Positions 876-57,230 of a stretch of 64,000 bases of DNA are shown here, piece by piece. This DNA is from Cloeon dipterum. Lineage: Eukaryota > Arthropoda > Insecta > Ephemeroptera > Baetidae. Under the pieces are notes generated by a model. That model saw only the letters and a program-made list of their open reading frames with translations. It was not told the origin of the DNA and ran no database searches. The position numbers were made by a program, and so were the translations under genes. The stretch spans positions 1,116,001-1,180,000 of the forward strand of contig NC_088789.1 in the NCBI RefSeq assembly GCF_949628265.1, read 5' to 3'. Every line of letters starts with the position of its first letter. The first letter of the stretch is position 1.

Positions 876-3800
876 TCATTTGAAGTTACCGTAGGTGTCA
901 AACGAGTTCAAATATTGCTTGGCGGCTTCGTACACGAGCCCAAACTGGATCTGCATAAGGATAAAAAGAAATTAAAATTCCAATATTTAAATAAAAAATA
1001 ATAACCGCACTTCTGAGGAAACAAAGGAAGGTCTCGACTTTCTCAGGGTTCGCACTGCAAGCCCAACATCAACCTTCTGCTCCAGCTTAATTTTCTCGAT
1101 GACGAAGCCCATGGCGAGGAAAAGCCCGCTGGCAGTCACCCCGTCACTAAAAAGCATCAATCATATTTAATTAATTTTTATTAATTTTTCTCTTACTGGC
1201 AGACAATGGTGATGCTATCTTTCTCATGGGCCGTTTTCAAAGTGCCCCAAAGGTCGATGAAGGGTTGCAAGATTGGCGGAGCAGCTTGTTGCGGCATCCA
1301 GCCAAATGAGGCGCACATGACGCGCACTTTTTTGCATTTTCCTTTCTAAAATACCAATTATGAATTGAGTGATAGCGTTAAAAAGATAATTCGTACGGAA
1401 TGAAGCTCGATGTCCAAGGTTCTAATGTTATTATCATCTTCAGCATCAGCCAAGGTAACTTGTATAGCACCGAAAGCGAATCTGCGTTGCTTGGTTGGAA
1501 GAAAATCGCCCTGAAAAAAATCAATGAAAACCGGTACGAGAGTTTGATATTTTAAGAAATACGTCTGAAATGTGCGGCTCGGTGAGCACAACGATTTGCT
1601 TCACGTTGAACTGATCGATCAATCTCCAAAAATCCGCAACAGTGTTTTTCATCGGCACTTGAGTGGCGATAAATTGCTTCGCTCTGTTGTATCCGTCGAC
1701 GATAACGGCGTTGATAAAACTCATGGTCACGACATTCTCGTAAGGGAAAAGTTTTACGATCGCGTTAGACGCTGAGTAAGAGAAATAAATTAACGAATAA
1801 CTATAGAGTTTCTGATGATTGTATCTCACAGGCTATGAAATCCGGATATCTGCATTTGTCCGTTTCGTTTCTGGCAGGTGTTTCCAATCTTTGAAAATCC
1901 TTTTCGCAAATCATCTCAACTTTTGCGAAGCTCTCCTTGAGCTTTTCACTGTTCGACTGTATAAAAGGGGAATTTGGTTTTTTTATGCTTTGTTCAAGAC
2001 GTCAAGAACGTACCATTAACTTGCAATATTCCTCATAAAAATTAGCACAGCTAATTTCAAACTTGGGATTCGCAATGATCTCCAAGAGCACCAAATGGAC
2101 GAACTCGAATTGTGCCTGTTTTAGATCTTTAGTCCAATTTTTTTTACTTAGATATTATTTGTCAAGTTACCAAATTATCAACCAAATTGACTCGTTGAGA
2201 CCTCATTTGACCGAATATGCTCAATACATCAATACGATTGTGCGAACGAAACATTCGAAGGCAAGCATCAATTAAAATAATTGTGCCAGTTCTCCCAACT
2301 CCAGCACTGAAAATTACCACAAAGTAAGCCAAAAATGATAAAAGTTATGGTATGCAGAGACCTGCAGTGGATTAATATCGGATTTTTGTTCTTGTGTTGG
2401 ATAATTTTATCGATGAAAAGAGCCATCGACTGCGGATAAAGAGGCACTCCATGGTCAGGCCAGCTCGTGTAGTGCAATTGTTGGACCTATAGAGGTATTT
2501 TTATTATATTTTATTTTTAATTTTTTTTATTATGTCATTATTACGAGTCGGTTCACATTATCGCTTGAGAATGATAAAGTCCTAGTTACGTAGTCGGCGT
2601 TTATTTCCTCGTTGACAGAGCGAACAGCTACGGTGCCGTAATTTTCTTCCCTGTTGATGTCGGGCCAGTATTTTTCACACTTTATCTATTTAAAATAAAA
2701 ATTATACCTTTTTTGTGTCTTGTCGCTTGAAAGTACAAATTTACCTTGCCATCTTCCACAAGATTTGTCACCATAACAATTAAAGAAATGTTTTCCTGCC
2801 AAATCATTCTCCAGAAGTCGTTAACGGTAGATAATTTCGGTCCTTGAGTAGCAATGTAAGCCTTCGGTCGTTCAAATCCCTTGAAAATATTACAAAAGGT
2901 GTCTAAAATATTATCCAACCACGGAAAATTACATCCACGTAGTTGGCGTTGATGTAATCAGAGTTTTCGTCACCGGGAAGAAGGTCGAGTACAACCCGAG
3001 AACAATCATAGGCGGCCAAGTTACCGTAGCGATTCTTTTTCTTATTTTGAGATTTGGTGCCGCAGTCCCATGACTGGGTTTGACCGCGTGGAAATTTCTA
3101 AGTAAGCACATATTTGGCATTACAAAGAAACATTTTATATAAATGAACAACCTCGAACTCTTTCTTGAGGTTGAATGTAAGGGCCTTCTGCAAGTATCTT
3201 TCAACGTTAGTTGAGCTTGAATCTATTGGCATTTCTGTATTATCATCGGTGAATTGGTTTGCTCCTGTTTGATTCGGCAGCATCTCGTTACGTAAAATTG
3301 CTGAGTTGTTTGAAAATTGCACAGAGGATATTTGGTTTGGAGGCTGAATGTTCTTCCATTTTTTTAAATAGAACCAAACTCCGAGTCCAGTGAGCACGGC
3401 TAGAACTGCCAAAACGGTTGCGATTGGGGTGAGCGATGACGAAATGTTTCCTATAAACCATCAATCAGATTAAATTAAACCTTAATTCAATAGATTTTTA
3501 ACCTAATTTATCTTGAGTTGGGCAGTTGGAGCATGTAAAATTTTCATGCAAAGATGATGATGACATGTTCACAAAATAATAGACGGTAATACTGTGCACT
3601 CCGCAATTGCAGTTGTCGACAACTTTCGTAAAATCTCCTTTATTCTCGGTTTGGTTTACTATCACAGTTGCATTGTGGACCACCGTTAAATATATTGGCG
3701 TGCACAGAACATCACCATCTGACAAGTGAATTGAAAACGCACTGCTATTGACAGCTCGAACCTTTAAGGCTGTGGAGTCTGTTTTCAAATTTAAATTAGC

Positions 3801-6800
3801 ATCTAAAATAGAAAAAAATACAGAATTTATCTTACCAAGAGGCTTGCACTTAGTAGTAAATGTTGAATTATTTCCAGGTAGAAAATTTTGAGGATGTTGC
3901 ATCACATCACTTTCAAAAAGGGTAAATCTTATGGTGTACTCTGTTTTTGGATTCAAGTTCGAGATTGAGCACTCGTTTAATTCATTCGGAACATTTATGC
4001 TCTTATTATTCCAGTCTGATTGCGAGCTCTAAATAAAACCAATTAATTGTTATTTTTAATAAATTTTCGCGACTGAAAATTACTCACAATTTTATATTGA
4101 ATCAAAATTTGGCTGATGTTAACTGTTCCATTCAAACTTGCGAGTAAATCCAGAGCAACTGTGTCATATCCATGGCTTTTAACTTTCGGAGTCGCAGTTT
4201 GAATTTCTGAAGAAAAAAAAACAAGATGCGCTACACCATCTTAGAATTATTTCGTATATGTAAATACTTTTATGGCACTCAGGGTAGACGTATCCTATGG
4301 CGCAACCATTTAGACAGCTTCCGTTTACTGGAGAGAAACTACCGTTCAAACATGTTCGGTTGTTGGTATAAGAACACATTATGCCAAATTTGTCCCCAGT
4401 GCATCCTATAGTAGATTTAAAAAATAGATAAAAAACATGGGTGTGCTACATGTCAGCCAGACAAAAATTGAATACTCTCAATCAATTATGTCTGTTTCCT
4501 GCAAACTGCTAAAATGCATTTTAACTGATTTTAAATCAAATTAATCAGATTTAAAAAGATTTACGTTCTGTGCAGTCAGTCCCCTTGTATCCAGCAAAGC
4601 ATGTGCAATTTTCCTTGCTGTAGCACAGTTTGTCTCCAGAACATTTTCCTCCATTTTCTTTGCAATTCCCGAGTTTGTACAAAACTAAACGAATGAAAGT
4701 TTGATTAAAGAAAATAAAATGATCTATCAAATAAAAAAACCCACGTTCGTTGAAATGAGTTGTGTTTGGAATTTGGGTTTGCGCTCGTTTCTCCAATGAA
4801 TAGCAATTATCCACATACTTCATATTTGTTTTAGTAACCAATTCTCCTGCGACGAAACAATATATGAGAAAAATTAAACTCAAGCACACTGGAAACTCAC
4901 CTTCTTTGCAGAATTTCACCCCTCCAATGACAAGTGATTTATCATAGGCAGTCAGTTTAATTTTCCAGCCTTTTTTCGGTGTGATATCCTTATTTCCAAA
5001 TCGCACCGTGGTCCATTTAAAATAATTATCCATTGAGCTCACTCTTTCATCAAATTTCTTTGTTCCTTTTGCATCCAAGAGTTCAACGGAGAATATTTTG
5101 TTGCCCAAATTAATGCGTTCATTTGTTAAAAACACGGCGTCTACGCAAAACGCGCTGGTCGAATCTTTCTTCAGTTGCACTTCCATTGTACTTGAAGCAT
5201 TGTTTGGTCGAATGATGAAATCTAAAAATTTTTAAATTTAATGCTCGTGTTCGGAATATCAGGTTCTAACCTCAAATTCACTGTCACTAAGTTATATTTT
5301 GTGCGCATTACATGTTGGGGGCATAATATTATTGCTGGGATGTATCTTGTATTGATGTATGACCTCGCAAAACGTCAATAAGGAGATATTCTTAATTGAA
5401 TCTTTTACAGAACTTACATTTGAAATAATTTGGTCCAGTGATTTTTCATAATTATATTTACAGGACGCAATATCATGGTATTCAAGACTTAGAGAGAAAA
5501 ATAATTACTCACACTTATGTGTTTTGAAAAGACCTCTGCTACTTCTTGTACTCCTAATTGAAACATAATTATCGTTGTCCCCTAGTTTGGCGCTGCAAGA
5601 ATTTAAAACTAAAAGTGAAGCTCATAATAGTGTTATGTTCCGTTGAATATGAACCAATTGTTGTTGTATGCATAGACACGGGATTAAAAAAGCAAGCAAA
5701 AAAAAACTTAATATATCTTGAAAAATATTAAATAAGCTGTGGTGATCATGGAATAGTATTTAATATTTTTGGGACGATATTTTTACTATCAAATCAATCT
5801 GAGTCAAGATCCTAAAATGCTATATTGAACCGCACATAATCAAATTAAGTTAATTTCAAATTTATATCTTTTGGCTCAAGGAATCAACCTTTACAAAGAA
5901 TTGATAATCATTTAAAAGGAAAAAGAAAATTATTCAAACCTTGCTGTTTGTAAAGAAATCTTAATAATGTGTTCCCCTAAATCAATAGAATAGTTTTCAT
6001 TTGATTTGTCGAATTGTATTTCTAGTGTGGCATGTGCCCATTTCCGCCCTGCGTGGAGAACATCAGAGCCCTGTACAAATTGTGCATCACCAAACAAACT
6101 AGCAATTTGTTTGATGAAAATACCAACCTTTTTTTCAACCAGGCTATTTTTATCACAAGATGCATAAATAACTCCACTTGTATCTACTTTGGAACCATTA
6201 ATTTTTGGGCAATTACGGAGCACAGACTTATGATCATCTGCCCATCCGTCAATAACAGCATTGAGTCCGCTATTTAAAGTTGAATCGTTCGTGAAAAGGA
6301 ACTGCGCCGAGTCGTTTGCCAGAATCGAAAAATGCATCTTGAAATTATGGTATTTTGAAATCTTTATTTTTTCCTTGAATGCTTCCATCGTTAAGGTAAC
6401 CGGCAAGTCTAAAATTGACAGGTTGCAATCCTAATATACCTGGAAACAATTATTTACCATTCCAGCGGTAGTCGGTGACCATTGGATATTGGTCGATCGA
6501 GTCCTTTATGTTTGATTCCTTGATCCATTCCTTGATCCATTCCTTGAGGTTCCACTTACCGCAGCCTGTTTCTTGCACCAAGTTGCAATCGTTATCGGCA
6601 AGTGGAACACTTTTGCCGTTTAAGTCCACGACAGTTACCGTCACGGTGTCGTTAACTTTTGGTTTTGAAAATAGCATCCTTGATTATTGTCATAATACTT
6701 TATTATTTAAAAATTTGGCTGGAATTTTAATTTCATCCTTGAATGAACAAAAATATAGGCTGAATTGTTTTATTTAAAATTATAATTGCACATTAAAATA

Positions 6801-9009: not shown

Positions 9010-9238
9010 CTTGGGTTTCGCTCAGCCGCGAGAGAAACCTGCACTGCAACAGGCAAAAACACGGAACAAAACTTTTGTCGTGTGGTTGTGACGGTATGAG
9101 AGTGATAAGGAGAGCTAGCATTCAAACAGGAAACACCAATCAAGTCTGGATTGAAAATCTGGCAAACTTCAGAGACCTAAATGAAATTCTAACAGGCACC
9201 CTCATTTTAAAAATTGAATCATTTTATTTTATGTAGCC

Positions 9239-9776: not shown

Positions 9777-9777
9777 T

Positions 9778-16107: not shown

Positions 16108-16113
<6 letters not shown>

Positions 16114-34000: not shown

Positions 34001-35004
34001 TCAATTTCGCCAGGAGACTGTTGTTCTGACTTTACTTCCGCATGAACCCAATTTTTCCCTCCGTCCAGAATGATTTGGTTCTATTTGCAAAATTTATTTC
34101 ATTTTTACAGATGTCACTATATAGTCATTTAAAACATCAAACCTGAACAATTTTTAACTTTACTTCACATATCGGCCATCTTTCAAGGTTAGCATTGTAA
34201 ATAGCCGTGCAGTATTGCAACTCTGACTGATGTGTGTTACCCCAACCGTCGATAACAGCTCTGTATCCTTTCTCAAAAGTTGAGTCATTCGTTAAAAGAA
34301 ACTGTGCTGAGTCATGCGCCAGAATTGAAAAATGTAATTTGAAGTATTGATGCCTTATTGTTATTTTTGATTCAAATTTTTTGCTGGGGAAGTAAGTTGG
34401 TAAATCTGTAATTCGTTTTAATCAAAGTCCAGTTTTGAAAGATGTCATTTTAATACCATGCCAACGGAAGTCAGTAACCATTGGATAAGGGTCAAGAGAG
34501 TTTTCTGTATTGAGACTGCTTTTCCATCCACTTTTCCACTCCCAAGACTGACAGCCATTTTCGATCACTAGATTGCAATCGTATTTGGCATCAGGTGGAA
34601 GTACGGGGTTTCCATCCAAATCCACTACATCCACTTTGGTAAAGTCTTTTGTGACAATAATGTTTTCAGTTTGGTCATTAATAAAGAAAAAATATATAAA
34701 TTTGTATCTATCTAGGACATTTAACTGTCATAAAATTAAAAATCTCCTAGAACGATTCGTGGTATTATGCCATAATGAACTGACCTTGTTTATTTTCAGG
34801 TTTTTTGACAAAAGCGACAGTTTTGTCCGAAACGCAAGCCTTCAATTTCCCAAATTTTTTAACTTCAAACACGGAACCATTCGTGAAATTGGAATCTGTT
34901 AGTTTGATGACATTGTATATATCATATAAATATAGTCTCTTAATTCAAGACTCACCTTCAGCCAGGAGCAAAAGAAAGAGCAGGGCGGAGAAACGCCCAA
35001 ACAT
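28012..35004 (-). CDS. Receptor-type PTP, paralog 3 (RPTP-3), active-type D1
   Basis: Starts with signal peptide [17 protein letters not shown] (exon 35004-34956). A FAMeT-like module with [11 protein letters not shown] follows, then the beta-rich module with [11 protein letters not shown] (33670-33355), seven EGF-like repeats (exons near 33145, 32970, 32785, 32280, 32085, 31720, 31505), an FN3-like pair, a membrane helix (exon near 30570-30265), D1 and D2. D1 has KNRYKN, WPDHGVP and [10 protein letters not shown] (Cys codon 29490-29492), so it should be active. D2 has CHDGVTACG and should be inactive. The last exon ends YGNFK and stops at 28012. The cytoplasmic half is clearly more diverged from the other paralogs than they are from each other, while the ectodomain is nearly identical to RPTP-5. 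I did not trace every exon. Confidence 0.88.
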
Positions 35005-38615: not shown

Positions 38616-41600
38616 TCAACATTTGAAGTTACCGTAGGTGTCAAACGAGTTCAAAAAGTGTAAGGCAGCTTCGTACAGGAATGCAAACTGGATCTGTTAA
38701 GGGAAAAGAAATTAAATTTAAAATATTTCAATTAAAAATAGCCGTACGTCTGAGGAAACAAAGGCAGGTCTCGACTTCCTCAGGGTTCGCACTGCAAGCC
38801 CAGCATCAACCTTCTGCTCCAACTTGATTTTCTCGATGACGAACCCCATAGCGAGGAAAAGCCCGCTGGCAGTCACCCCGTCACTAAAGGGAATGAATAA
38901 ATTATCCTACTAATTTATTTTTTATTAATTTTCTCTCACTGGCAGACAATAGTGATGCTATCTTCCTCATGAGCGATTTTCAAACTGCCCCATAGGTTAA
39001 TGAGGGCTTCCATGTTTGGCGGAGCAGCTTGTTGCGGCATCCAGCCGAACGAGGCGCACATGACGCGCACTTTTTTGCATTCTTCTTTCTAAAAATACCA
39101 ATTATTAAATAATTTTCTGCGTGAAAAAGATAATTCGTACAGAAAGAAGCTTGATATCCAAGGTGTTGATGTTGTTGTTATTTTGAGAATCAGCCAAAGT
39201 AACCTTTATGTCGCCAAAAGCGAATTTGCGTTTCTTTGACGGAAGAAATTTAGCCTGGAAAAAATTAATGAAAACCAGGAGAGTTAGAAATTTTTTTGAT
39301 ATACGTCTGAAGTATGCGGCTCGTTGAGAACAACGATTTGCTTGACGTTGAACTGGTCGATCATCCTCCAAAAATCCTCAACTGTATTTTTCATCGGCAC
39401 TTGAGTGACGATAAATTGCTTGGCTCTGTTGTATCCGTCGACGATTACGGCGTTGATAAAGCTCGTGGTCACCACATTCTCGTAAGGCAAAAGTCTAATG
39501 ATGGCGTTAGACGCTGAGTGAGAGATAAAAATTAATAAATAACTAGAGAGTTAATACTGATTGTATCTCACAAGATATGAAATGCGGATATCTGCATTTT
39601 GCGGGATCGTTTTTGGCTGGTGATTCCAATCTCTGAAAATCCTTCTCGCAAATTATTTCGAGTTTTACGAAGCTCTGCTTGAGCCATTCCCTGTTGTACG
39701 ACTGTATGAAAGTGATATTTGGTTATTTTTTTGCTAACGGCATGAATCCTGTCTTGGTCAAGACTCCCAAGATCTTACCATCAACTGGCAATATTCCTCA
39801 TCGAAATTGGCACAGTCAATTTCAAACTTGGGATTCGCAATGATCTCCAAGAGCACCAAATGGACGAACTCGTATTGTGCCTTTTTTAAATTATTAGTTC
39901 AATATTTTTACTAAATGTATCAGTCAAGTTACCAAATTGTTGACCAAATTGACTCGTTGAGACCGCATTTTGGTGAAAATGCTCATCACATCTATTCGAT
40001 TGTGCGAACGAAACATTTGAAGGCAAGCATCAATTAAAATAACTGTGCCAGTCTTCCCCACTCCACCACTGAAAATAACCACAAATTAAGCTAAAAATGA
40101 TAGGTAATGGTATGCAGAGACCTGCAATGGATCAATATCGGATTCTTGTTCCTGTGTTGGTTGATTTTACCGATGAAAAGAGCCATCGACTGCGGATAAA
40201 GTGGCACTCCCTGGTCGGGCCAGCTCGTGTAGTGCAATTGTTGGACCTGTAGAGGAATTTTAATTATGTAATAGTTTATATTTACTTGTGTGACGATTAC
40301 GAGTCGGATCGCATTATCACGGGAGATTGAAAAGGTCCGTGTTACGTAGTTGGCGTTTATTTCCTCATTGACGGAGCGAACAACTACGTTCCCGTAACTC
40401 TCTTCCCTGTTGACGTCTGGCCAGTATTTTTCACACTTTTTCTTGTCACCTACCACCAGATTTGTCACCATAACAATTAAAGAAATGTTTTCCTGCCAAA
40501 TCATTCTCCAGAAGTCGTTAACGGTAGATAATTTCGGTCCTTGAGTAGCGATGTAAGCCTTCGGTCGTTCAAAACCCTGAAAAAATATTACAAAAGCTGT
40601 GTGAAATTATATCGATGACCTCAGAAAATTACATCGACGTAGTTGGCGTTGATATAGTCAGAGTATTTGTCGCCGGGAAGAAGATCCAGTACAACCCGAG
40701 AACAGTCGTAGGCGGCCAAGTTTGCGTATCGATTCTTTCTCTTATTTTGGGATTTGGAGCCGCAGTTCCATGACTGAGTTTGGCCGAGCGGAAATTTCTA
40801 AGCAAACGCAAGAGTCATATATTTTCCAGTACAACACGTCATTTTATATAAATTAATAACCTCAAACTCTTTCTTGAGGTTAAATGTAAGGGCCTTTTGC
40901 AAGTATCTTTCGACGTCAGTTGATATTGAATTTAACGGAATTTCTCTATTATTATCAGTGAGTTTGTTTGCTCCAGCAGTTGGTGTTGGCAGTATCTCGT
41001 TTCTTAAAATTTCAGAGGTATTTGAAAATTGCACCGTAAGTTGGTTTAAAGGCAGATTTTTCTTCCATTTTTTCGTATAAAACCAGACGCCGAGACCAAT
41101 AACCACGGCTAGAACCGCCAACACGGTTGCGATTGGAGTGAGCAGTTTCCAGATGATTCCTTATCAGAATTCGTTATCAGAATTAATAATCAGAACGTTA
41201 TATTCAGCAGATTTGGAACCTAATAAATCTATAGTTGGACAGTTTGAGCATAAAAACATTTCATGCAACGTTGATGACAAATCCACAAAAGCGACGGTAA
41301 TTCTGTGCTCTCCACATTGGCAGTTGTGAACAAATTTCACAAAATTTGCTCCAACCATGGTTTCGTTCAATATCTCAATTGCGTTGTGAACCACCGTTAA
41401 ATATTTTGGCGTGCATACATCAACATTGGCATCGACGGACATGTTAATCGAAAAAGTACTGCTGTTCACAGCTTGAACCGTTAATGCTGAAGCATCTATA
41501 TGTTTTCAAAATTAAATTAGCACGAAAGATGTTAATCAGAATTTATCTTACCAAGAGGCTTGCACTCAGTAATAAAACTCAAATTATTTCCAGGCAAAAA

Positions 41601-44600
41601 ATTTTGAGTGTGTTTCATCGCATCCTTTTCAAAAAGGGTAAATCTTATGGTGTACTGCGTTTTTGACTTTAAGTTCGAGATTGAGTACTCCTTTAATTCA
41701 TTTGGAAGATATTCTAATCGTTCATTAGCCCAGTCTTGTGAGTGCGAGCTCTAACCCAGCGAGCAGAGGGGTAACCGCGGTCACTTTTCGGTCACCTGAC
41801 AAAAGTTGAACAAAATGTGGTTTTGCAATGTAGGCATGATCCTGATTCATGTTTCATTGGAATTTTTTTGAAATTTGGCTGGGATCATGCAAATTTTTAG
41901 TGCCCAGTCTCGGGCACCAAATGGGCACCTTTCGGTTACCCGGAGCGGGCAGGGGGTCACTTGCGGTCACTTAACAAAATTTAAAATAAGGGTGGTTTTG
42001 CATTTCAGGCATGATCCTGAATGATGTTTCATCGGATTTTTTTCGAAATTTGGCTCGGATAACCGAAATTGCCCGTGCCCAGCCTTGGGCACCCATCGGG
42101 CACCTTTCGGTTACCCGGAGCGGGCAGGGGGTCACTTGCGGTCACCTAACAAAATTAAAACTAAGGGTTATTTTGCATTTCAGGCATGATCCTGAATCAT
42201 GTTTCATTAAATTTTTGTCGAAATTTGCCTTGGATCACCGAAATTGCCAGTGCCCAGTCTTGGGCACCCATCGGGCACCTTTCGGATACTCGGAGTGGGC
42301 AGGCGGTTAACTATGGTCACTTGCGGTCACCTGAAAAAAATTAAACTAAGGGCGGTTTTGCATTTCAGGCATGACCTTGAACCTGGCTTGGTTGGAATTT
42401 TTTATATTTGGCTGGGATCACCTAAAATTGCCAGTGCCCAGTCGTGGGCAACCATCGGGCAGCTTTCGGGTAACTCGGATAGGATAACTGCATGCGGTGT
42501 GACCGGTTCATTAACTGTTTTCGTAAAATTTTGGGCACAGAAAAAATATTATTATGGTTATTGTAGGATTGAAAAATAAATTTTTATGCATTTAAATATG
42601 ATTGCTAAAAAGGGGCAACTTTTGGCTACCCAATGGTTAACCGATGCGCGAGCACCATTTTACTTTACTCGTTTTACACTCAAATTTGGTCAGATTTTCG
42701 TCACCGCAGGTTTTAACTTATTTTGGAAAATATTTTTTTTAAAAGTAGCTTAAGTACACAAATAAATAAATAAAATTTTTGATAACCAAATTGGGTTACC
42801 CAATGGGCAACCAATGGGCAACCTGAGAACCACCGTAAATTCTTGAGTTCGTGTTTCGTAAAAATTATTTTTTAAAAATTTATTTGGTTATAACACTTAT
42901 TAGCATTTCAAACTCTTTAAATTATTATCTCGTTTTGAGCAATAATTATTATTTTAGCTCAGCATTATCGCGCGCGCGTTTCTTTGTTACACTCGTCGGC
43001 CGCGCGTGTGGCGCCACTGTCGGCAGTAGCACCAGCTGCGGCTGCCTCTGGCTCAGTGACTGAAAACAAGCATGATGGTTGAGACGCGCTGGATTGCATC
43101 ATCATTTTTAGCCGAGAATTTCGCCGTGTTTTCGGTTGCTTTTCGACAAATAGACAACATCAACGGGTTTTTGGATGGATTGTCGATGTTCCTGATGTTC
43201 CGAAAGGTAAGGGTATGCATTGAATACATTAGATTTGCGTAGGGCGCGGCGCCGCGCGGCGGTGTACAAAAATACGCGCGCGTAGACACATATACTGGCA
43301 TCAAAATATTCGTTTTAAATTGCTTTAAAATCATCCTTGTGTCATCAGGCTAGCACCGCGTCCCGCCCTGATTGATTATTTTGATGTCCTCTGGTTGGGA
43401 ACTTGGGAATAGCTGCCTAAACGCGATGGCCATCCGGATGACAAGCCTGGACAAGTTAACAAAACTCCGGCCGCAGTATCCGCAGGTATGCAGTTGAATT
43501 CCCGGCGATATTATTGAGTAGATAATTAATACTTTGTATTTTATTTTGCAGGGTTTGTCTGCTGTTTTGTTTGCATTTTCGGCTGACGTGAAATTGATGG
43601 GACCATATGGACCCCAAAGATGTAAAGCAACGGCCATGTTTGACAGGATAAGTGCTGGACGCTGGACGACATGAGTAGGGATATTGAGTGCTTTTCTTTG
43701 TATGTTTTATGGCGTTTTTTGTGTGTTGAAATCTTTAAAATTAATATTAACAAGGCTCTAATTTTCTGCTCAAATACGTAAATTCACTTAACAAATGTTC
43801 GCAACAACTGAATTTAATTCCAATAACTATGTTTTGATTTTGTGTTTGCGGCATATTTTTATTTTAGGTTTGCATTCTCTAGATGAATATTTCTAGATTT
43901 CCCTGACAACTAATTGTAGACACAACTAATTTTTAAATTAATTTCTCTGATAGTGATCTCATAAGTTTATAAATATCAATTGCAAAAGCCTTAAATGTTT
44001 CAATTCAATAACAATAGATGGTGCCACTGGTATACTTCTGATTTTAATTCCCTCTCATTGTGTTTTTTTTATTAAAGTTAATACTGCTGCTGTGCCTTCT
44101 GGACTTATACTATTAATTTTAATGTGCTCAAAACCAAAATCAGTTACGCCGCAATCACCCTAGAAACATCAGCACATTGAAAAAAATGTAATTACACTTC
44201 GACGATGATTGGCTTATATGTTTTGGTTTCCAGCACATCAGATATAATTATTTAAAGGGTTGAATGTTGAATGCACAGCAGCAGGACCGTGTCCTCTATC
44301 TCAGTGAAATCTTATTAAAATCAAAAGAATACCAATTAATGGCAGCCAAGGGGGAATTCCCAACTGCAGGTTAACTCGTACAATTATTATAATCATCCAA
44401 TATTATTTGTTCTGTTACTGCATCACCTCAAAAATCAATGTTTTTATGGTTTTAAACGTTTTAACAATTAAGTCTCATTAATTTGTAAGTGTGCAGTTCT
44501 CCGCAGTCTATTGTACGCGATTTTTTGGTGTTGAAAAATTGTTGTTAACACTTAATAATTTATTTTTTAATTGTAACTGCTTATTCTCTGTTATTGAAAG

Positions 44601-47600
44601 GTGGAATGTAACTTAACTGCATTAGGTATAACCTTCGAATTTTCACTGCCAAACCTAGTTTTCAATTGTGAACGACTTTTAATTCGCAGGTCAAAGGTCA
44701 TGGTCACCTTTCTTTTTTGAAAATTCAATATTAGGGGATGATAGCCCTCTCAGATTTTTTGGGGTTAGCCCGTGAAAATCTGCACAAGCACACCCAAGTT
44801 TTTGAAGTACCAAAAATGTTTGCTGTAATTTGAAAATGAAAGTTGAAATACGGCTTGATGCCGCTCGATCGAGCATGCCCGTTAGTCGGCGAGTTTGTCT
44901 ATCATTTGTCAATAATATTTTAATCCGTTCCATTTGCTTAGGCACAACAAGAGGACCAAGGATTGACATAGTAAGGTCAAAATTGACCTTCAGGGTCTGA
45001 ACCTGATGAGACCCTGAGACCTGAGATAATAATTTCGAAAATGTCCAATTTCATCAATCATGGTGTCTTTTTATAGGTTTTGGCCTCTGTACAGCTAAAA
45101 AATACAGCCTAAACCGCCGAATGACAATCCTGAAACCAATTCTTGAAATAATTGTGGTAGCCATTAATCCCGACGTGATGTTAAAAAGTTTTAAAATTTG
45201 AAATCGGCAGTTTTGACTTTATATTTGAGCTGCAGAGCGGTGATAGCTTATGGAAAGACACTTAAGTTTGATGAAATTGATTTTTTAATCTCAGGATCTC
45301 GTCAGGTACAGACCCTGAAGGTTGATTTTGACCTTGATATGTCTACACTGGGCCCTCTTGTTGTGTCTAATCAAATGGAATGGGTAGAAATATTATCAAC
45401 GAATGATGGGCGAACTCGCCGACTAAAGGCCGTGCTCGATCGAGCGGCATCGAGCCGGATTTTAATTTTCAAATTCAAATTACAGCAAAACTACTGTTGC
45501 ACCTTTGAAACTTGGTGAGCTTGTGTAGAATTTCAAGGGCTACATTTCAGCCCTGAACCCCAAAAAGATCTAAGGGTTGTATCATCCCTTGATTTTGAAT
45601 TTTTGAGTAAAGGTTGCAAAAGGTGACCTTGACCTTTTCCCTGCGAATTTTTTGTAGGTTGATAAGTTGTTCATGGTGGAAAACTAGGATAGAAAATGAA
45701 AATTTCAAGGTGATATCTTAACCCAGTAAAGAGTTACAGTCCACCCTTCATTCACATAATTTGATTTACAGGGATTTTTAAAAATAGGGATCTTCAAATT
45801 TGATGTATAACATGTATTATTTAATTGTAATTTATTTGTTGTATGAATATCATCCAATAAAAGTGCTGCCCATCTAGCTGCCCACTGAAGGTAACCGCAG
45901 GCGGGCACCCAATGGTTACCTTTTGGCTACCTCTTACCTAGGGCTGTCATTTTGCGCTACAAATTTCACTTTTTTAATGAACAGAGTCAATCGACCTGCC
46001 ACCTGAAAGCCCTAGATAAAAGGTAGCCAAAAGGTAACCAATGGCTGCCCACTGGTGGTAACCTCAGCCGGGCACCCGATGGTTAGCTTTTGGTCAACGA
46101 ATTTTATCGGCCTCTCATTTATTACGCTCCCTGAATTCAGGTATACCTTTAATGTACATAAAAGGAGATTCTATGAAAGGTCATTTAATGGGTGCCCATT
46201 TGGTGACCGAATTCTGGGCATGACCACTCGCGGGTGCCCGAAGGGTTGGACATGCGGTATAACCAATGGGTGCCCATCTGGGTGCCCACGGGGGGTAGCC
46301 GGGTGACCGAACGCGGGCACCCAATGGGCACCTTTTGGTTGACTTTTTTCTCGGTGGGAAATTGGACCAAATAATTTGCAAGCTATTTTTCGAGACTGTA
46401 GTTAACTCACAATTTCATATTCAATCAAAATTTGGCTGATGTTAACCGTTCCATTCAAACTTGCGAGCAAATCCAGAGTAACCATTTCATATCCAACCCT
46501 TTTTACTTTTGGAGTCACAGTTTGAATTTCTGTAAAATATATAGAAATAAATAAGCACCAACATTTTTAAAATTTTTTAATGTATGTATGTACTTCTTTG
46601 GCACTCAGGGTACACGTATCCTTTGATACAACCATCCAGGCAGCTTCCGTTTTTTCGAGAGAAATTCCCATTAAAGCATTTCCGGTCGTTAGTTTTCGAA
46701 CAATTCGGGCCGAATTTTTTCTTAGTGCATGCTACATAGTAGATTTAAAAAAGAGAAATATATGAGAGCATGAAATGTTAGAGATAAGCTGAAATAGTCG
46801 ATTATTATGAATCAATTAGTGTCATAATGACTTCCGTGTTAGTTGTAAGAAGTGAAATTAAAATACAGACCTTTTTCACAAATCGGGGGGTAATATCCAT
46901 CTGCGCAACCCTTCAAACATTTTCCATCAACATGGTTTATTTCATTATTCAAGCATTTCTTCGTAGATGTTTTATGGCAATTTTTTCCGTACTTATCACC
47001 CGTGCATTCTAAAAAGAATGTGTATTATTACCGATTAATGTTTGTTATATTCAAAATACCATCGATGCAATCAGGAAGAGAATATCCAGCGGCGCACCCT
47101 TCGCGACACGTTCCGTTTATTGGAGAGAAGCTTTCGTTAAAACATTTTCTTTCGGTAAACTGTGAGCAGTTTAGTCCAAACATCGTTCCGTGGCACTCTT
47201 TAATTATATTAATAAGAAAAAATAGCGGCATTAATCAATACATACGAAATGCACAGTTATTTCCTTGATATCCAGCAAAGCAAGCGCAATATCCTTCCTG
47301 GTAGCACAATCGGGTACCCGAACAATCTTCTCCAAATAACTTGTTGCAATCAATAAGTTCAGACCAGACTGCGGGTAGAAACATTCTCGTATGAATTAAC
47401 TCTTTAATATAAGTAAAACGCTTACTCTTTTGGACATGAGATATGGCAACCTGTTCCGTCGTGTCTGTTTCTTTCACCAAAGATTGGCAGTGGTTTGGAT
47501 TCTCAATTTTTGGCTTATAAACCGTAAATCCTGCTCGACGATAATGACAATAACTTTAGTCATATGAACAATTTTAATCTGACCTTCTTTGCAGAATTTG

Positions 47601-49200
47601 ATCCCGCCAATCACAAGTTCCCGAGTGTGAGCAGTCAACGTAATCGTCCAGTCTTTTCTCAATTTTATATCGTTTCTAAATATCCTTGCTGTTGTCCATT
47701 CATTTTTCCTTCTAGTTATGATGTTTTCATTGAAGATCACAATTTTTTGTGCATTTTTTATCTCAATTTTAAACGCTTGATTGCCTTGTGATATTTGCAT
47801 TGTTGTCAGGAACACGACATCAATACAAAACGCATTCGGCAAATCAGATTTCAAGGGCAATTCCATTGATTTTAATGATTCAAAAGGCAGAAGCACATTG
47901 TCTAAAAAAGAAGAAAGAAATTTCTTATACGTTCAATCGCTTTTCCACTTTTTAAGAAACAAAATAAAAAAAACAAACGCACATTTGTGAAGTTTAAAGA
48001 GACCTTCTTCATTTGTCCTGAAGGACAAAACGTTCATCACCTGATTGATACTTTTACTGCAAGAAATTTGAGAAATTAATCAATAAAGAAAATCCGAGGG
48101 TTCTTGGTAAATCTGAAAATGAATTAAATCTATAGATGACACAGATACCTATCAAAGAGGTTGATTGTTAATGAATTTGTCGGAGCTCGATAGTTAATTT
48201 CGTTAAATGACTGTTGTGTTGCCATTACTTCCGCATGCACCCAACTTTTCCCTCCGATCAGAATGATTTTGTCCTATATGTAAAATTAAGTTTATTTTTC
48301 CAGATGCCACCAGTCATTTAAAGCATCAAACCTTTAAAGTTAAAAACCTTTCGTTACATGTCGACAATTTTCCACGCTCAAAATGCTCAATTGCCGTGCA
48401 GTATTGCAACTGAGACTGATGTGTGTTACCCCAACCGTCGATAACAGCTCTGTATCCATTCTCAAAGGTTGAGTTATTCGTGAAGAGAAACTGTGCTGAG
48501 TCATTCGCCAGAATTGAAAAATGTAATCTGAAGTATTGATGCGTTGGAATTTTGGATTCAAATTTTCCGTGGGTGAAGTAAGTTGCAAAGTCTGTAATTC
48601 GTTTATCAAAGTCTGATTTTTAAGGAGATGTCGTTTCAATACCATTCCAACGGAAGTCAGTAACCATTGGATAAGGGTCAAGAGAGTTTTCTGTATTGAG
48701 ACTGCGGTTCCATCCACTTTTCCACTCCCAAGACTGACAACCATTTTCGATCACTAGATTGCAATCGTATTTGGCATCAGGTGGAAGCACAGGGTTTCCA
48801 TCCAAATCCACTACATCCACTTTGGTAAAATCTTTTGTGACAAAAATGTTTTCAGTTTAGTCGTGAATTAAGATTTTTTATTAGTTTAATATGGGTTGTG
48901 TCAATAAGAGGTATTAATTTGTAATAAAATTAAAGATCTCCTAGAAATATTTGTGGTTTTAATTGTTATACTGAACTGACCTTGTTTATTTTCAGGTTTT
49001 TTGACAAAAGCGACAGTTTTGTCCGAAACGCAAGCCTTCAATTTCCCAAATTTTTTAACTTCAAACACGTAACCATTCGTGAAATTGAAATCTGTTAGTT
49101 TGAAGACATTGTATATATTATATAAATATAGTCTCTTAATTCAAGACTCACCTTCAGCCAGGAGCAAAATAAAGAGCAGGGCGGAGAAACGCCCAAACAT
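38616..49200 (-). CDS. Receptor-type PTP, paralog 4 (RPTP-4), with intron loss and D1 Arg-to-Lys
   Basis: Signal peptide exon 49200-49152, FAMeT-like module (48870-48130), beta-rich module (47896-47580), four EGF-like repeats (near 47370, 47205, 47010, 46735), FN3-like pair, membrane helix (exon near 41160-40862), D1 and D2; last exon 38693-38616. The intron between the two FN3-a exons contains a 4.6-kb insertion (41755-46358), so the gene is split but its exons are intact. D1 has KNRYAN, WPDQGVP and [10 protein letters not shown]: the cysteine remains (40124-40126), but P-loop Ala is Gly and the phosphate-binding Arg is Lys, so activity is probably very low or absent. Exons 16 and 17 are fused without an intron (40576-40301, 276 nt). 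The ancestral stop has become TGT and the next codon is the stop. Confidence 0.86.
41770..42485 (+). repeat. Four tandem repeats of about 180 bp
   Basis: Each unit contains GGTCACTTGCGGTCACcT, a stretch like TTTTGCATTTCAGGCATGAT, AAATTTGGCTGGGATCA and the GTGCCCAGTCTTGGGCACC palindrome-like end. Units begin near 41770, 41947, 42129 and 42305 and become more diverged to the right. Confidence 0.85.
43384..43674 (+). CDS. Possible two-exon small ORF inside the insertion
   Basis: ATG at 43384 runs to 43485 (34 codons), where CCGCAG|GTATGC is a good donor. A TTATTTTGCAG acceptor opens 43552-43674, which continues in frame to TGA and gives 74 residues. An upstream ATG-bearing segment (43072-43206) also ends at a donor (CGAAAG|GTAAGG), but I found no in-frame acceptor joining it. 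No protein family is recognised. The region is more GC-rich than its surroundings, as a captured gene fragment would be. It may equally be chance. Confidence 0.25.
44685..45670. mobile_element. Diverged foldback element nested in the insertion
   Basis: Left arm (about 44685-45020) and right arm (about 45285-45665) are inverted copies, shown by the same peptide string ([14 protein letters not shown]) on opposite strands. The outer ends AGGTCAAAGGTCAtGGTCAC and the complement of GGTGACCTTGACCTTTTCCC resemble the inner arm ends of the RPTP-2 foldback (17499-18700), suggesting related families. The arms are clearly diverged, so it is older. Confidence 0.7.
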
Positions 49201-50996: not shown

Positions 50997-53900
50997 TCAT
51001 CTTTTGAAGTTACCGTAGGTGTCAAACGAGTTTAAAAAGTTTAAGGCAGCCTCGTATACAAGCCCAAACTGGATCTGTATAAGGAAAACAAATTGAAATT
51101 CCAATATTTAGATATAAAATAATAACCGTACTTCTGAGGAAACAAAGGCAGGTCTCGACTTCCTCAGAATTCGCACCGCAAGCCCAGCATCAACCTTCTG
51201 CTCCAGTTTGATTTTCTCGATGACGAAGCCCATGGCGAGGAAAAGCCCGCTGGCAGTCACCCCGTCACTAAAAATCATTAATTATATATTTATGTTTAAT
51301 TTATTCTTGTTGTTGTTTATTCTTGCCAAAGTCATACCATTATAAGAACAGATATAAAATTTACAGCAAGAAATGGCATATTTAATTTTTCTTTAGTTTT
51401 TCTCTTACTGGCAGACAATGGTGATGCTATCTTCCTCGTGAGCAATTTTCAAAGTGCCCCATAAGCTAATGAGGGCTTGCAAGTTCGGTGGACCAACTTG
51501 TTGCGCCATCCAGCCAAATGAGGCGCACATGACGCGCACTTTTTTGCATTTTCCTTTCTAAAATACCAATTATTTAACAATGGTTTGCGCGAAAGTAATA
51601 ATCCGTACGCAATGAAGCTCAATATTCAAGGTTCTGTAGGAATTGTCATCTCTAGAGTCAGTTAACGCAATCTGTATTGTACCAAAAGTGAATCTGCGTT
51701 GCTTGGTTGGAATTAATTCAGCCTGTCAAAAGTAAATATGAAAACCAGGAGAGTTGGAATTTTTTAGATATATATACCTCAGAAATATGCGGCACGTTGA
51801 GAACAACGATTTGCTTGACGTTGAACTGGTCGATCATCCTCCAAAAATCCTCAACTGTATTTTTCATCGGCACTTGAGTGACGATAAATTGCTTGGCTCT
51901 GTTGTATCCGTCGACGGTAACGGCGTTGATAAAGCTCGTGGTCACCACATTCTCGTATGGGGAAATTTTAACGATCGCGTTAGAGGCTGAGTGAGAGAAA
52001 AAATTAATAAATAACTAGAGTGTTAATACTGATTGTATCTCACAGGATATGAAATGCGGATATCTGCATTTGTCGGTATCATTTCTAGCAGGTGTTTCCA
52101 ATCTCTGAAAATCCTTTTCGCAAATTTCTTCGAGTTTTGCAAAGCTCTCCTTGAGCTTTTCACTGTTGTTCGACTGTAGCAAAATTAAATTTTTGTTATT
52201 TTTACGTTGGAAAGCTAATCTTATCTTGGTCAAGACTCTAAGAACTAAGAACGTACCATTAACCGGCAATATTCCTCATGAAAATTGGCACAGCTTATTT
52301 CAAACTTGGGATTCGCAATGATCTCCAAGAGCACCAAATGGACGAACTCGTATTGTGCCTATTTTAAATTATTAGTTCAGTATTTTTACTAAATATATCA
52401 GTCAAGTTACCAAATTGTCGACCAAATTGACTCGTTGAGACCGCATTTTTGTGAAAATGCTCATCACATCAATTCGATTGTGCGAACGAAACATTTGAAG
52501 GCAAGCATCAATTAAAATAACTGTGCCAGTCTTCCCAACTCCAGCACTGACAATGAACATCACCAGTAAATTAAAAATGATAAAAGTTATGGTATGCAGA
52601 AACCTGCTGTGGATCAAAATCGGACTCTTGTTCCTGTGTTGGTTAATTTTATCCATGAAAAGAGCCATCGACTGCGGATAAAGAGGCACTCCATGGTCGG
52701 GCCAGCTCGTGTAGTGCAATTGTTGGACCTATTGAGGAATTTTAATATAATGGTATTTACTTGTGTGACCATTACGAGTCGGATCGCATTATCGCGGGAG
52801 ATTGATAAAGTTCGTGTTACGTAGTCGGCGTTTATTTCTTCATAAACTGAGCGAACTACTACTTTGCCGTATATGTCTTCCCTGTTGACGTCGGGCCAGT
52901 ACTTTTCACACTTTTTCTATTTGAAAAATATTTATATGATCGGGTCGCTTGAATATAAAAATCTACCTTGTCACCTACTACCAGATTTGTCACCATAACA
53001 ATTAAAGAAATGTTTTCCTGCCAAATCATTCTCCAAAAGTCGTTAACGGTAGATATTTTCGGTCCTTGAGTAGCAATGTAAGCCTTTGGTCGTTCAAATC
53101 CCTGAAAAATATTACATCAGGAGTCTAAAATAAGATCCAGCCAAAAAATATTACATCAACGTAGTTTGCGTTGATGTAGTCAGAGTATTTGTCGCCGGGA
53201 AGAAGATCCAGTACAACCCGAGAACAGTCGTAGGCGGCCAAGTTTGCGTATCGATTCTTTCTCTTATTTTGGGATTTGGAGCCGCAGTTCAATGACTGAG
53301 TTTGGCCGAGCGGAAATTTCTAAGCAAACGCAAGAGTCACATATTTTCCAGTACAACACGTCATTTTATATAAATTAATAACCTCAAACTCTTTCTTGAG
53401 GTTAAATGTAAGGGCCTTTTGCAAGTATTCTTCGACGTCAGTCGATGTCTTATTTAAAGGAATATCTTTATCATTATGAGTGAGTTGGTTTGCTCCAGCA
53501 GTTGGTGTTGGTGGTATCTCGTTTTTTAAAATTTCAGATGTATTTGAAAATTGCACAGTAGATAGTTGGTTTGAAGGCTGAGTTTTCTTCCATTTTTTTA
53601 GATAAAACCAAACTCCGAGAGCAGTGAGCACGGCTAGAACCGCCAACACGGTTGTGAATGGCGTTAGCAGTGACGAGTTTGTTCCTTCAAATCCCAGAAA
53701 CCATACATTAGTGTTTGCTTTCACTCTCGGTCTCGCAGAGGCGTGTGGCCCCCGCTGGCTCTTCTGCTGCTTGTCAGGAAGCCACGAGTCACTGCGGAGA
53801 ATAGAGCATTGGGCCCGTGGCTGCCGGACCAGCAGCAGATGAAGATCCGGCCGTGGCCACACCCACACCAACAAGACAGAGAGTGAAAGAACAAAAAACA

Positions 53901-56900
53901 AATTTCTTGTAAATGTGGAGTAGGGATTCATAGGGCGCAGAATATGCGGCATTTGGCTGCGATGACGGCCCCTTAAGCTTGCAAGCACTATCTTCTTTTA
54001 TTGAAATCATGATTTATTCCGCCAGAAAGAAAATTCAGCTCACAATTCGCACTTCACATTATAGAGTATCAAATTTATCAAAACTGAAAATCTACACATT
54101 TCCAACAAGCGCGTCTTGGTGTGTATTTTACAATATGAAATCATTGCTACTAACCTTTCTCGCATGCTGGGAAAGAATATCCATCTTCACATCCATTCAA
54201 ACAATTTCCGGTGGCACGGTTGAGCTTGGCTCCAAAGCAGTGCTTGGTGGAAGTCTTGGAACAATTTACTCCATAGCTGTTACCCTCGCATTCTTAAATA
54301 GGTAGCAATATTTATCTATTTTCTTTTAAAATCGTCAATCAACCGGTGGTACATACCATTAATGCAATCCGGAAAGGAATATCCCTCTTTACACCCCTTC
54401 AAACAACTTCCATCTACATGGTTGAATTGATCATCTTTACAATTTTTGTATGAAGTATTCCCACAATTTTTTCCGTAACTGTTGCGTTCACATGCTGAGT
54501 ATGAAAATAAAATAAATTCATGGGTGTGTTCAGCGTATATATGAGAAAATTATCATTCCCTATCAAATGAATTCGAAATACTTCCTTGTTAATTCCTCAG
54601 AATAAAAAATTGCAATAAATCATAAAATCTGTAAACCACAAGTTTCCCGAACATTTCCCTCAATATATGGTTTCATGCGTTAATTAACTGGTCTAGTCAG
54701 GTTATGGCTATGTATAGAGAATAAATTTCATTCATTATTTTACTTCCAGGAAGCATTCTAGGATCCAAGTTTGCATAATTTCGTGGAATGGATTACTCTC
54801 TTTCCGTGTTGGTTGTAAATTAGGTTAAGCTAAAGTATATGGAGTGAAATTAAAAAACATACCTTTTTCACACGGGGGGTAGTAACCATCTGCGCAACCC
54901 TGCAAACAGCTTCCATCGACACGGTTTATATCATTATTCAAGCATTTCTTCGAGGATGTCTTGTAGCAATTTATTCCATACTTATTACCCGTGCATCCTA
55001 AAAAGAATGTTAATTTATTAATGAATGTGTGTTATATTCAAAATACCATCGATGCAATCAGGAAGAGAATATCCAGCGGCGCACCCTTCGCGACACGTTC
55101 CGTTTGTTGGAAAGAAGTTTTCTTTAAAACATTTTCTTTGGGAAAACTGTGAGCAGTTTAGTCCAAACATAGTTCCGAGGCACTCTTTAATTTTTTAAAT
55201 ATGAGAAAAAAGCGGAATCAACAATTCAGTATACATACGACTTTCACAGTTATTTCCTTGATATCCAGCAAAGCAAGCGCAATATCCTTCCTGGTAACAC
55301 AATCGGGTACCCGAACAGTCTTCTCCAAATAACTTCTTGCAATCAATAAGTTCAGACCAGACTGTGGTTAGAAACACTCGTATGAATAACAAAATTAAAT
55401 TAATTATAACGCTTACTCTTTTTGACGTTAGATACGGCAACCTGTTCCGTCGTGTCTGTTTCTTTCACCAAAGATTGGCAGTGGTTTTGATTCTCAATTT
55501 TCGGCTTATAAACCGTAAATCCTGCTCGCAAATAATGACAATAACTTAAATCATACGAACAATTTTAATCTGACCTTCTTTGCAGAATTTGATCCCGCCA
55601 ATCACAAGGTCCCGAGTGTGAGCAGTCAACGTAATCGTCCAGTCTTTTCTCAATTTTATATCGTTTCTAAATATCCTTGCTGTTGTCCATTCATTTTTCC
55701 TTCTAGTTATGATGTTTTCATTGAAGATCACAATTTTTTGTGCATTTTTTATCTCAATTTTAAACGCTTGATTGCCTTGTGATATTTGCATTGTTGTCAG
55801 GAACACGAAATCAATACAAAGCGTATTCGGCAAATCAGATTCCAAGGCCAATTCCATTAATTTTGATGATTCAAAAGGCAGAAGCACATTGTCTAAAAAA
55901 GGGTAAAGAGATATATCGTATACTTTAAATTGTTTTTCATCTTGTAATTTCTAAATTATATATGATACAGAAATCTAAAAATTTGAGAATAACAGACGCA
56001 CATTTGTGAAGTTTCAAGAGCCCTTCTTCATTTGTCCTGAAGGACAAATAATTTTCCGTCCGATAATTATTTTTTCTGCAAGAAATTTGTCAAATTAATC
56101 AATGAAAAAATCAGAGGGCTCCTTTGGAATATCTGAAAATGTGATAATTTAATTTAATTTCTACAAACAAATACCTATAATCAGGGAAGTTGATTGTTAA
56201 GGTATTTGTCAGAGCTCGATACTCAATTTCGCCGGGAGACTGTTGTTCTGACTTTACTTCCGCATGAACCCAATTTTTCCCTCCGTCCAGAATTATTTGG
56301 TTCTATTTGCAAAATTTATTTTATTTTTACATATATGTCCTTATATAGTCATTTAAAACATCAAACCTGAACAATTTTTAACTTTATTTCACAAATCGGC
56401 CATTTTTCAAGGTTAGCATTGTAAATAGCCGTGCAGTATTGCAACTCTGACTGATGTGTGTTACCCCAACCGTCGATAACAGCTCTGTATCCATTCTCAA
56501 AGGTCGAGTCATTTGTGAAAAGAAACTGTGCTGAGTCATTCGCCAGAATTGAAAAATGTAATCTGAAGTATTCTTGAGTTGGAATTTTGGATTGAAATTT
56601 TCCGTGGGTGAAGTAAGTTGGTAAATCTGTAATTCGTTCTAATCAAAGTCCAGTTTTGAAAGAGATGTCGTTTCAATACCATTCCAACGGAAGTCAGTAA
56701 CCATTGGATAAGGGTCAAGAAAGTTTTCTGTATTGGGACTGCTTTTCCATCCACTTTTCCACTCCCAAGACTGACAGCCATTTTCGATCACTAGATTGCA
56801 ATCGTATTTGGCATCAGGTGGAAGCACGGAGTTTCCATCCAAATCCAATACATCCACTTTGGTAAAGTCTTTTGTGACAATAATGTTTTCAGTTTGGTCA

Positions 56901-57230
56901 TTATTAATAAAGAAAAAATATATATTTGTATCTATCAAGGACATATTTAACTGTCATAAAATTAAAAATCTCCTAGAACGATTCGTGGTATTATGCCATA
57001 ATGAACTGACCTTGTTTATTTTCAGGTTTTTTGACAAAAGCGACAGTTTTGTCCGAAACGCAAGCCTTCAATTTCCCAAATTTTTTAACTTCAAACACGT
57101 AACCATTCGTCAAATTGAAATCTGTTAGTTTGAAGACATTGTATATATTATATAAATATAGTCTCTTAATTCAAGACTCACCTTCAGCCAGGAGCAAAAA
57201 AAAGAGCAGGGCGGAGCAATGCCCAAACAT
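50997..57230 (-). CDS. Chimeric receptor-type PTP, paralog 5 (RPTP-5), no FN3, D1 Cys-to-Ser
   Basis: Signal peptide exon 57230-57182, FAMeT-like module (56870-56160), beta-rich module (55887-55575), five EGF-like repeats (near 55375, 55185, 54998, 54496, 54294), then directly the transmembrane/juxtamembrane exon (53689 to about 53395), D1 and D2; last exon 51074-50997. The FN3 pair present in all other copies is absent. The last EGF exon and the transmembrane exon are both phase 1, so the join stays in frame (E-K-G-T-N-S-S). D1 has KNRYAN and WPDHGVP but P-loop [10 protein letters not shown] (Ser codon 52606-52608), predicted inactive. The ectodomain is nearly identical to RPTP-3, while the cytoplasmic part matches RPTP-2 and -4. 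The open frame also reads through 53988-53690, which I treat as intron holding a MITE. Confidence 0.84.
53718..53889. mobile_element. Small inverted-repeat element at the RPTP-5 recombination junction
   Basis: CTTTCACTCTCGGTCT (53718-53733) is mirrored by AGACAGAGAGTGAAAG (53874-53889), with further imperfect pairing inward (GTGTGGCC/GGCCACAC). The core is GC-rich. It lies about 30 bp upstream of the transmembrane exon acceptor, in the interval where FN3 exons would be expected. Confidence 0.7.

Follow-up and report, generated by a model that had tools for sequence, protein, structure and literature searches.

We examined a window of 64,000 nucleotides from Cloeon dipterum (NC_088789.1, here contig C4, positions 1116001-1180000, in a genome of 190 Mb in 10 contigs), which carries a tandem array of 5 genes for receptor protein tyrosine phosphatases (RPTPs), all on the minus strand. 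Spliced alignment, with an aligner of the GeneWise type written for this analysis, gave each gene a transmembrane segment followed by 2 phosphatase domains, D1 and D2, which is the arrangement of classical two-domain RPTPs. Pfam PF00102 (Y_phosphatase) matches the gene 1 model twice (391 bits), and the D1 of gene 2 aligns end to end with PTPRS (4bpc), its best solved relative. A preliminary description of the window had placed a five-gene array with mixed P-loops at 876..57230, and we observed the same: the stop of gene 1 is at 876, the start of the gene 3 signal exon maps to about 57228 in gene 5, and spliced alignment recovers all of the P-loops that had been stated. Genome-wide, Chitin_bind_4 has 94 matches and the olfactory-receptor family only 5, a profile that by itself would suggest an arthropod other than a typical winged insect; a pattern for the 5' end of 18S had no match. 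Coordinates are collected in Table 1.

An intron divides the P-loop, within the Ser codon that follows the Cys, and the catalytic codons were read over it. The nucleophile codon specifies Cys (TGC) in genes 1, 3 and 4 and Ser (AGC) in genes 2 and 5, while the P-loop Arg (AGA or AGG) of genes 1 and 3 is replaced by Lys (AAG) in genes 2, 4 and 5; the residue after this position is Ala (GCT) in 4 of the window genes and Gly (GGT) in gene 4. The WPD Asp and the KNRY Tyr are retained in all 5. Length changes in a DNA alignment of the cytoplasmic parts of genes 1, 2, 4 and 5 were intronic, with none within the D1 or D2 coding exons, in keeping with the earlier statement of an otherwise conserved D1 with junctions that look intact. 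The exception to the exon/intron match in this alignment is one whole intron absent from gene 4: the D1 intron found in genes 1, 2 and 5, and also modelled in gene 3, is precisely missing at 40442/40441 (-). The single frameshift flag in the window models (gene 5 D2, near 51267) corresponds to no coding indel in the DNA alignment.

Comparison of the heads block by block (N-terminal block, block resembling the farnesoic-acid domain, beta-sandwich, linker and first EGF) separated them into 2 types: alpha in genes 1 and 2, which are 90-100% identical to each other, and beta in genes 3, 4 and 5 (77-97% for genes 3 and 4 or genes 3 and 5), with 50-64% identity between the types. The remaining parts are grouped otherwise, the stalk of gene 4 with those of genes 1 and 2 (76-88%), and the transmembrane-D1-D2 portion of genes 4 and 5 with genes 1 and 2, not gene 3; gene 5 has a head of the gene 3 type, followed by at least 4 EGF-like units and then by a transmembrane segment, D1 and D2 of the gene 4 type. 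Silent divergence between genes 1 and 2 was 0.109 in the head versus 0.308 in the stalk, 0.289 in the transmembrane segment, 0.345 in D1 and 0.276 in D2 (head versus rest, Fisher p = 6e-6), and between genes 3 and 5 it was 0.127 in the head versus 1.17 in D1 (p = 1e-34), both p values treating differences as independent. Positions 31895..35147 (-) of gene 3 and 57372-54112 of gene 5 are 94.2% identical over 3,276 aligned columns that take in introns and the 5' flank, and we read this tract as a recent head exchange. By the block identities and the low silent divergence of the heads, both head types are found on canonical as well as altered receptors, and the sharing is recent. The preliminary description had spoken only of related ectodomains; the relation is closer than that, for canonical and dead genes have shared heads more recently than they have shared their other parts.

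As judged from these alignments, recombination has taken place between heads and cytoplasmic cassettes, at introns that separate the domain exons. Genes 1/2 and genes 3/4/5 resemble paired receptors at the sequence level, being clustered genes with near-identical heads and differing cytoplasmic parts, with recombination or gene conversion in the putative ligand-binding exons (the silent divergence and the 3.3-kb tract). Head dN/dS is about 0.6 for genes 1 and 2 and 0.58 for genes 3 and 5, versus about 0.17 in the D1 of genes 1 and 2, so that diversification of the heads goes together with restraint on the enzyme domain. Near-identity of genes 1 and 2 is seen also in the D1-D2 linker exon (100%) and most of the next intron, a short patch of recent conversion within D2 sequence that is otherwise 75-96% identical.

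An exon of D2 that is specific to this family has 26 matches in the genome, and the 22 strong ones (E 2e-14 or better), all on C4, correspond to 20 genes with D1 and D2 and 2 relics. Genes outside the window are named by position on C4 (A, 0.6-2.5 Mb; B, 29.2-30.1 Mb). The catalytic codons were read in 21 genes, after which A18960k, which is distant and has no strong D2-exon match, was set aside, to leave 20; it is left out of the codon tests and counted among 14 other PTPs (protein tyrosine phosphatases). The 5 genes of the preliminary description are thus real, but its frame was too narrow, for at least 20 genes are involved and the commonest alteration lies outside the window.

A D1 with HCX5R and WPD is present in 7 of the 20 family genes, which keep Cys, Arg and the WPD Asp (genes 1 and 3, A0608k, A1082k, A1098k, A2538k and B29210k), and absent in 13. 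These 13 have essential catalytic residues replaced within a PTP fold, as is expected of pseudophosphatases, and fall into 3 classes. Genes 2 and 5 (Cys to Ser with Arg to Lys) and gene 4 (Arg to Lys only) form the K class. The S class, A1012k, A1020k and B29222k, has Cys to Ser and Lys for the Gly before the retained Arg, together with WPE in A1012k and A1020k and KNRF in B29222k. The W class, which carries the commonest alteration, comprises 7 B genes with WPN for WPD and with Cys and Arg kept. In none of the 21 genes did the D1 alignment show a frameshift or a stop. By sequence, D2 is non-catalytic in every full-length copy aligned (VCHDGVTASG type, with Ala at the Arg position); for the gene at 29.51 Mb only 457 of 636 reference positions were covered, and its D2 codons lie outside the reading. 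In the relic at 29.285 Mb, D1 was not found within the 4,400 bases fetched.

For comparison, about 22 other classical PTP loci were grouped among the matches listed (150 of 175 candidates scored; survey threshold 150, the few near-threshold matches being taken as chance and ignored), and 14 were surveyed. All 14 keep Cys and Arg, and 12 keep the WPD Asp. Alteration in 13 of 20 family genes versus 2 of 14 other PTPs gives p = 0.005, a value overstated by the lack of independence among family members. Changes of the same kinds, encoded by other codons, are found again elsewhere in the family, which argues that the pattern in the window is more than chance.

The Ser codon is AGC in genes 2 and 5 versus TCC or TCA in the S class; AGC and TCC can each be reached from TGC in one step, but not from one another. 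In D1 trees the K, S and W classes are separate clades with support of at least 98. The different Ser codons and separate clades indicate that Cys was changed to Ser at least twice and Asp to Asn at least once. Gene 4 is paired with gene 5 inside the K class (support 79 in the nucleotide tree and 83 in the protein tree), so that by this topology either Cys was lost twice in this class, or it was regained by gene 4, for example by conversion.

Selection was estimated by codon maximum likelihood with clade-specific omega (dN/dS) on a D1 tree of the 20 genes (254 codons). Omega was 0.214 for the K class, 0.384 for S and 0.199 for W, with 0.149 for the rest, and omega = 1 was rejected for each of the three altered classes (p = 4e-13, 3e-5 and 1e-23, respectively); without stem branches the values were 0.194, 0.304 and 0.218. 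Neutral evolution of D1, the outcome that the preliminary description had named against itself, is thereby rejected, and its suggestion that dead copies are maintained agrees with the omega of 0.21 for genes 2, 4 and 5, a clade that includes the Cys-keeping gene 4. Taken alone, the dead-dead pair of genes 2 and 5 has dN 0.038 and dS 0.239 in D1. Four-class omega beats one ratio with p = 5e-4 with stems and 0.054 without. Under the same scheme D2 gave 0.205-0.406, a similar range, and by this measure the constraint on the altered D1 domains is of about the same strength as that on a non-catalytic PTP fold that still works.

The altered genes also change at few places. Comparison of the 13 altered with the 7 canonical genes at 25 catalytic or binding sites revealed differences at only 5: Cys, Arg, the Gly before Arg, the WPD Asp and, once, a KNRY Tyr. 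Unchanged in all 13 are the Q-loop Gln, KNR, the KCEKYWP residues, His and the remaining P-loop residues. Among 43 D1 positions that are invariant in the 7 canonical genes and conserved in 90% or more of 10 further PTPs from the genome, the class-wide changes were Glu to Gly, which adjoins a gap, and Arg to Lys in the K class, Cys to Ser and Gly to Lys in the S class, and Asp to Asn in the W class; a few further conserved positions are altered in single class members only. It looks as though chemistry has been lost from the altered D1 and the phosphotyrosine pocket kept. On this evidence it is close to certain, at the level of sequence, that the altered genes encode non-canonical receptors that are maintained.

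Ectodomains outside the window were compared for 10 of 15 genes. B29210k (canonical) neighbours B29222k (dead), and an ectodomain is common to both (dS 0.06-0.27). The dead cassette of B29222k is itself close to that of A1012k (D1 dS 0.235), under an unrelated ectodomain (dS at least 1.4). Modularity, as read from these genes, is general in the family; that canonical and dead receptors have heads in common is clear for the window and plausible for one further place.

Several features of individual genes are recorded here together with Table 1. The gene 1 model starts at the head, with no signal exon assigned upstream of it. Gene 2 was considered as a broken gene and this was rejected: DNA alignment and exon search gave an intact D1 and D2 and a last exon (17451-17380), about 1.35 kb beyond the first expected place, after an enlarged last intron. 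Gene 5 was likewise considered as a broken gene, its FN3 stretch giving a nonsense alignment. In this gene, in which FN3 and membrane-proximal exons were not detected, the EGF-like and transmembrane exons are both of phase 1, so that a shorter receptor is possible, with the splice as a predicted one. A 4.7 kb intron lies between 46411 and 41750 in gene 4. The number of EGF-like units differs, with at least 3 in gene 4 and at least 1 each in genes 1 and 2. The element between genes 1 and 2 appears young, its 300-bp direct repeats being 100% identical, and has matches to reverse transcriptase, RNase H and integrase in open frame.

Table 1. Features of the window (window positions) and 2 relics of the family elsewhere on C4
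Feature	Position	Strand	Basis or remarks
Gene 1, canonical D1	876..6644	-	Spliced alignment and Pfam; stop at 876
Gene 1, head	6644-4565	-	
Gene 1, EGF-like unit	4405-4268	-	
Gene 1, FN3	4206-3836	-	
Gene 1, membrane-proximal domain	3802-3503	-	
Gene 1, transmembrane/juxtamembrane	3450-3152	-	
Gene 1, D1	3097-2014	-	
Gene 1, D2	1956-879	-	
Gene 1, D1 exons with WPD loop and 10-residue P-loop	2171..2486	-	Cys TGC, Arg AGA
Long terminal repeat (LTR) element, Ty3/gypsy-like	9237-14330	+	Direct repeats 9237-9536 and 14031-14330
Gene 2, dead D1	17377..24363	-	Gene 1-like head
Gene 2, D1	20910-19834	-	
Gene 2, D1 exons with WPD loop and 10-residue P-loop	19990..20301	-	Ser AGC, Lys AAG
Near-identical linker patch, genes 1 and 2	1800-1956; 19608-19767	-	
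Gene 3, canonical D1	28012..35003	-	
Gene 3, signal-peptide exon	about 35003-34955	-	Read by eye
Gene 3, head	34640-33023	-	
Gene 3, EGF-like stretch	31366-32967	-	At least 6 units, then FN3 and transmembrane segment
Gene 3, D1	30211-29148	-	D2 to 28015
Gene 3, D1 exons with WPD loop and 10-residue P-loop	29299..29612	-	Cys TGC, Arg AGG
Gene 4, altered D1	38619..48826	-	Gene 1-type stalk, transmembrane segment, D1 and D2
Gene 4, gene 3-type head	48826-47246	-	
Gene 4, D1 exons with WPD loop and 10-residue P-loop	39933..40246	-	Cys TGC, Lys AAG
Gene 5, dead D1	51000..57228	-	5' end placed by DNA match to gene 3
Gene 5, EGF-like stretch	54156-55182	-	At least 4 units
Gene 5, D1 exons with WPD loop and 10-residue P-loop	52411..52728	-	Ser AGC, Lys AAG
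Dispersed element, copies around the genes	24722-25033 (-); 27717-28007 (+); 57374-57715 (-)		Common 21-residue translated stretch
Trypsin-like exon, downstream of array	61066-61398	-	PF00089, 21.8 bits, just above cut-off
Relic	C4, 603 kb		Stops in D2
Relic	C4:29281501-29285900		29.285 Mb; D2 exons downstream of ankyrin-repeat-like stretch

The head, the EGF-like repeats and the stalk have no confident Pfam match, and the whole head of gene 3 gave nothing at E 0.01. Assignment of the second head block to the farnesoic-acid domain (PF12248) was rejected, at 19.3 bits versus a curated cut-off of 24.2, and its structural model was unusable (predicted local distance difference test, pLDDT, 57). 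The third head block, modelled from 5 window sequences with pLDDT 80.5, resembles beta-sandwiches of the CBM61, CBM6, CBM32 and fucolectin kinds (Foldseek best E 5e-4, TM-score 0.5-0.6); the predicted fold gives a hint of glycan binding by the head.

Gene order, catalytic state as judged by sequence, constraint and module exchange are all legible in the DNA, and upon them we place the following interpretation, in which the altered receptors may oppose or fine-tune their canonical siblings. Both members of a pair would bind the same ligand through their near-identical heads. The canonical receptor, once engaged, would dephosphorylate tyrosines in the vicinity of the bound receptor; its altered partner would occupy the ligand, and possibly the phosphotyrosine substrate, without turnover or product release; such occupancy would raise local tyrosine phosphorylation and so oppose the canonical sibling. 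Cys to Ser and WPD Asp to Ala are the standard substrate-trapping mutations of PTPs. The overall logic would be that of inhibitory/activating paired receptors, built from phosphatases, and competition for shared ligands or substrates among canonical and altered receptors, as the preliminary description had proposed, fits this arrangement and has PTPRU as a biochemical precedent (PMC7320164). The full mechanism, a lineage-specific paired-receptor system with dead RPTPs as decoys or antagonists, we hold tentatively, as slightly short of evenly balanced. A more specific form, that of arthropod paired receptors derived from RPTPs, in which recombination equalises the heads, at least 3 chemical routes (Cys to Ser twice and Asp to Asn once, with Arg to Lys besides) give forms like substrate traps, and the shared ligand is perhaps a glycan, seems to us possible and somewhat doubtful.

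Several observations weigh against an antagonistic role. Tandem genes often undergo gene conversion that serves no function; conversion can also lower omega, and it breaks the single-tree assumption of the codon model. The S clade (0.38) is above the rest, its constraint being somewhat relaxed. Gene 4 and the WPN genes keep Cys and may have some activity. With D1 dS 0.21, the heads of B29210k and B29222k are no more similar than their D1, and since D1 is no more diverged than the ectodomain, plain tandem duplication suffices for this pair. Nor is the sharing of heads general: A1082k and A1098k, both canonical, have near-same D1 and diverged ectodomains (dS 0.6-2.4), and the heads of the WPN pair B29620k/B29640k are likewise diverged (dS 1.1-1.2).

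Other explanations draw on the same data. The altered copies could be kept for scaffolding, dimerisation or D2-partner roles, with head sharing a by-product of conversion or unequal crossing-over and no selection for shared ligands. This family already uses dead PTP folds, for D2 is non-catalytic by sequence yet constrained, and conversion patches are found also in the D1-D2 linker of genes 1 and 2 and in D2b of genes 2 and 4 (97%). Against a mere by-product, both head types occur on both catalytic states, and canonical and altered partners adjoin at 2 places on C4; we consider this explanation rather unlikely. A quite different possibility is that the altered D1 domains still act as enzymes, but slowly or with a changed specificity, and it applies most to gene 4 and the 7 WPN genes. 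The P-loop Arg is kept in 10, Cys in 8 and the Q-loop Gln in all of the 13 altered genes, and an Asp-to-Glu change in the WPD of PTPRK-D1 is described as keeping low residual activity with turnover about 115-fold down (PMC7320164). However, the Ser nucleophile of genes 2 and 5, A1012k, A1020k and B29222k leaves no thiol, and genes 2 and 5 are additionally without the Arg, so that changed enzymes are improbable as a general account.

If instead the altered copies were young and decaying, catalysis would have been lost first, with the remainder to follow. The raised omega of the S clade and the better fit of four classes than of one ratio point in this direction, as do the 2 real relics, the enlarged last intron of gene 2 and the stalk exons lost from gene 5. 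Yet the frames are open, omega = 1 is rejected in each clade, the D1 of genes 2 and 5 has far lower dN than dS (values above), and the changes are concentrated on catalytic residues; we therefore regard decay as very improbable. The same head on live and dead cytoplasmic parts makes the question of substrate trap versus ligand block versus scaffold directly testable. If the antagonist proposal is true, phosphotyrosine-trapping receptors would be natural antagonists of live phosphatase receptors that bind the same ligand, and the paired-receptor principle, described from vertebrate immune examples, would extend to phosphatases and to an arthropod.

Pseudophosphatases are usually studied singly, gene by gene; here one family has 7 canonical and 13 altered members, with several near-matched pairs and differing catalytic losses. 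Among the open-access papers that our searches covered we recognised none as describing this RPTP family or a phosphatase paired-receptor system, nor did we find there the combination of interchangeable heads, repeated catalytic loss and maintenance of altered copies. Dead RPTPs, Cys-to-Ser pseudophosphatases and paired receptors are each already known separately. LAR/PTPRS-type RPTPs share with the window genes the D1 that aligns from end to end, unlike the ectodomain, which here lacks a confident Pfam match, and the D2, which here has Ala at the P-loop Arg position. PTPRU is reported to have inactive D1 and D2 and to bind substrates of its active relatives, with which it is proposed to compete (PMC7320164). 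Like the altered genes, it is an RPTP with both domains non-catalytic beside active paralogues. It differs in that it keeps Cys, is altered in the WPD (WPE), pTyr (phosphotyrosine) and P-loops, and is one gene among the human RPTPs, whereas here Cys to Ser, Arg to Lys or Asp to Asn is found in at least 13 of 20 genes, beside canonical genes with near-identical heads. STYX, MK-STYX/STYXL1 and STYXL2 lack the catalytic Cys, with Ser in STYXL1 and STYXL2 and Gly in STYX (PMC8269279), and are in this respect like the Cys-to-Ser genes; they differ in being of DUSP type and described as signalling adaptors (PMC8269279), and they are not receptors and have no ectodomain exchange. In organisation the window genes resemble Siglec-11/Siglec-16 and CEACAM1/CEACAM3, which are neighbours of opposite cytoplasmic function whose ligand-binding exons are kept alike by gene conversion (PMC5701461, PMC2832619). 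Those pairs are immunoglobulin-fold receptors of vertebrate immunity with motifs of the ITIM/ITAM type (immunoreceptor tyrosine-based inhibitory or activation motifs), whereas the pairs reported here are from an arthropod, set canonical against altered phosphatase domains, and have a head that is CBM-like by prediction.

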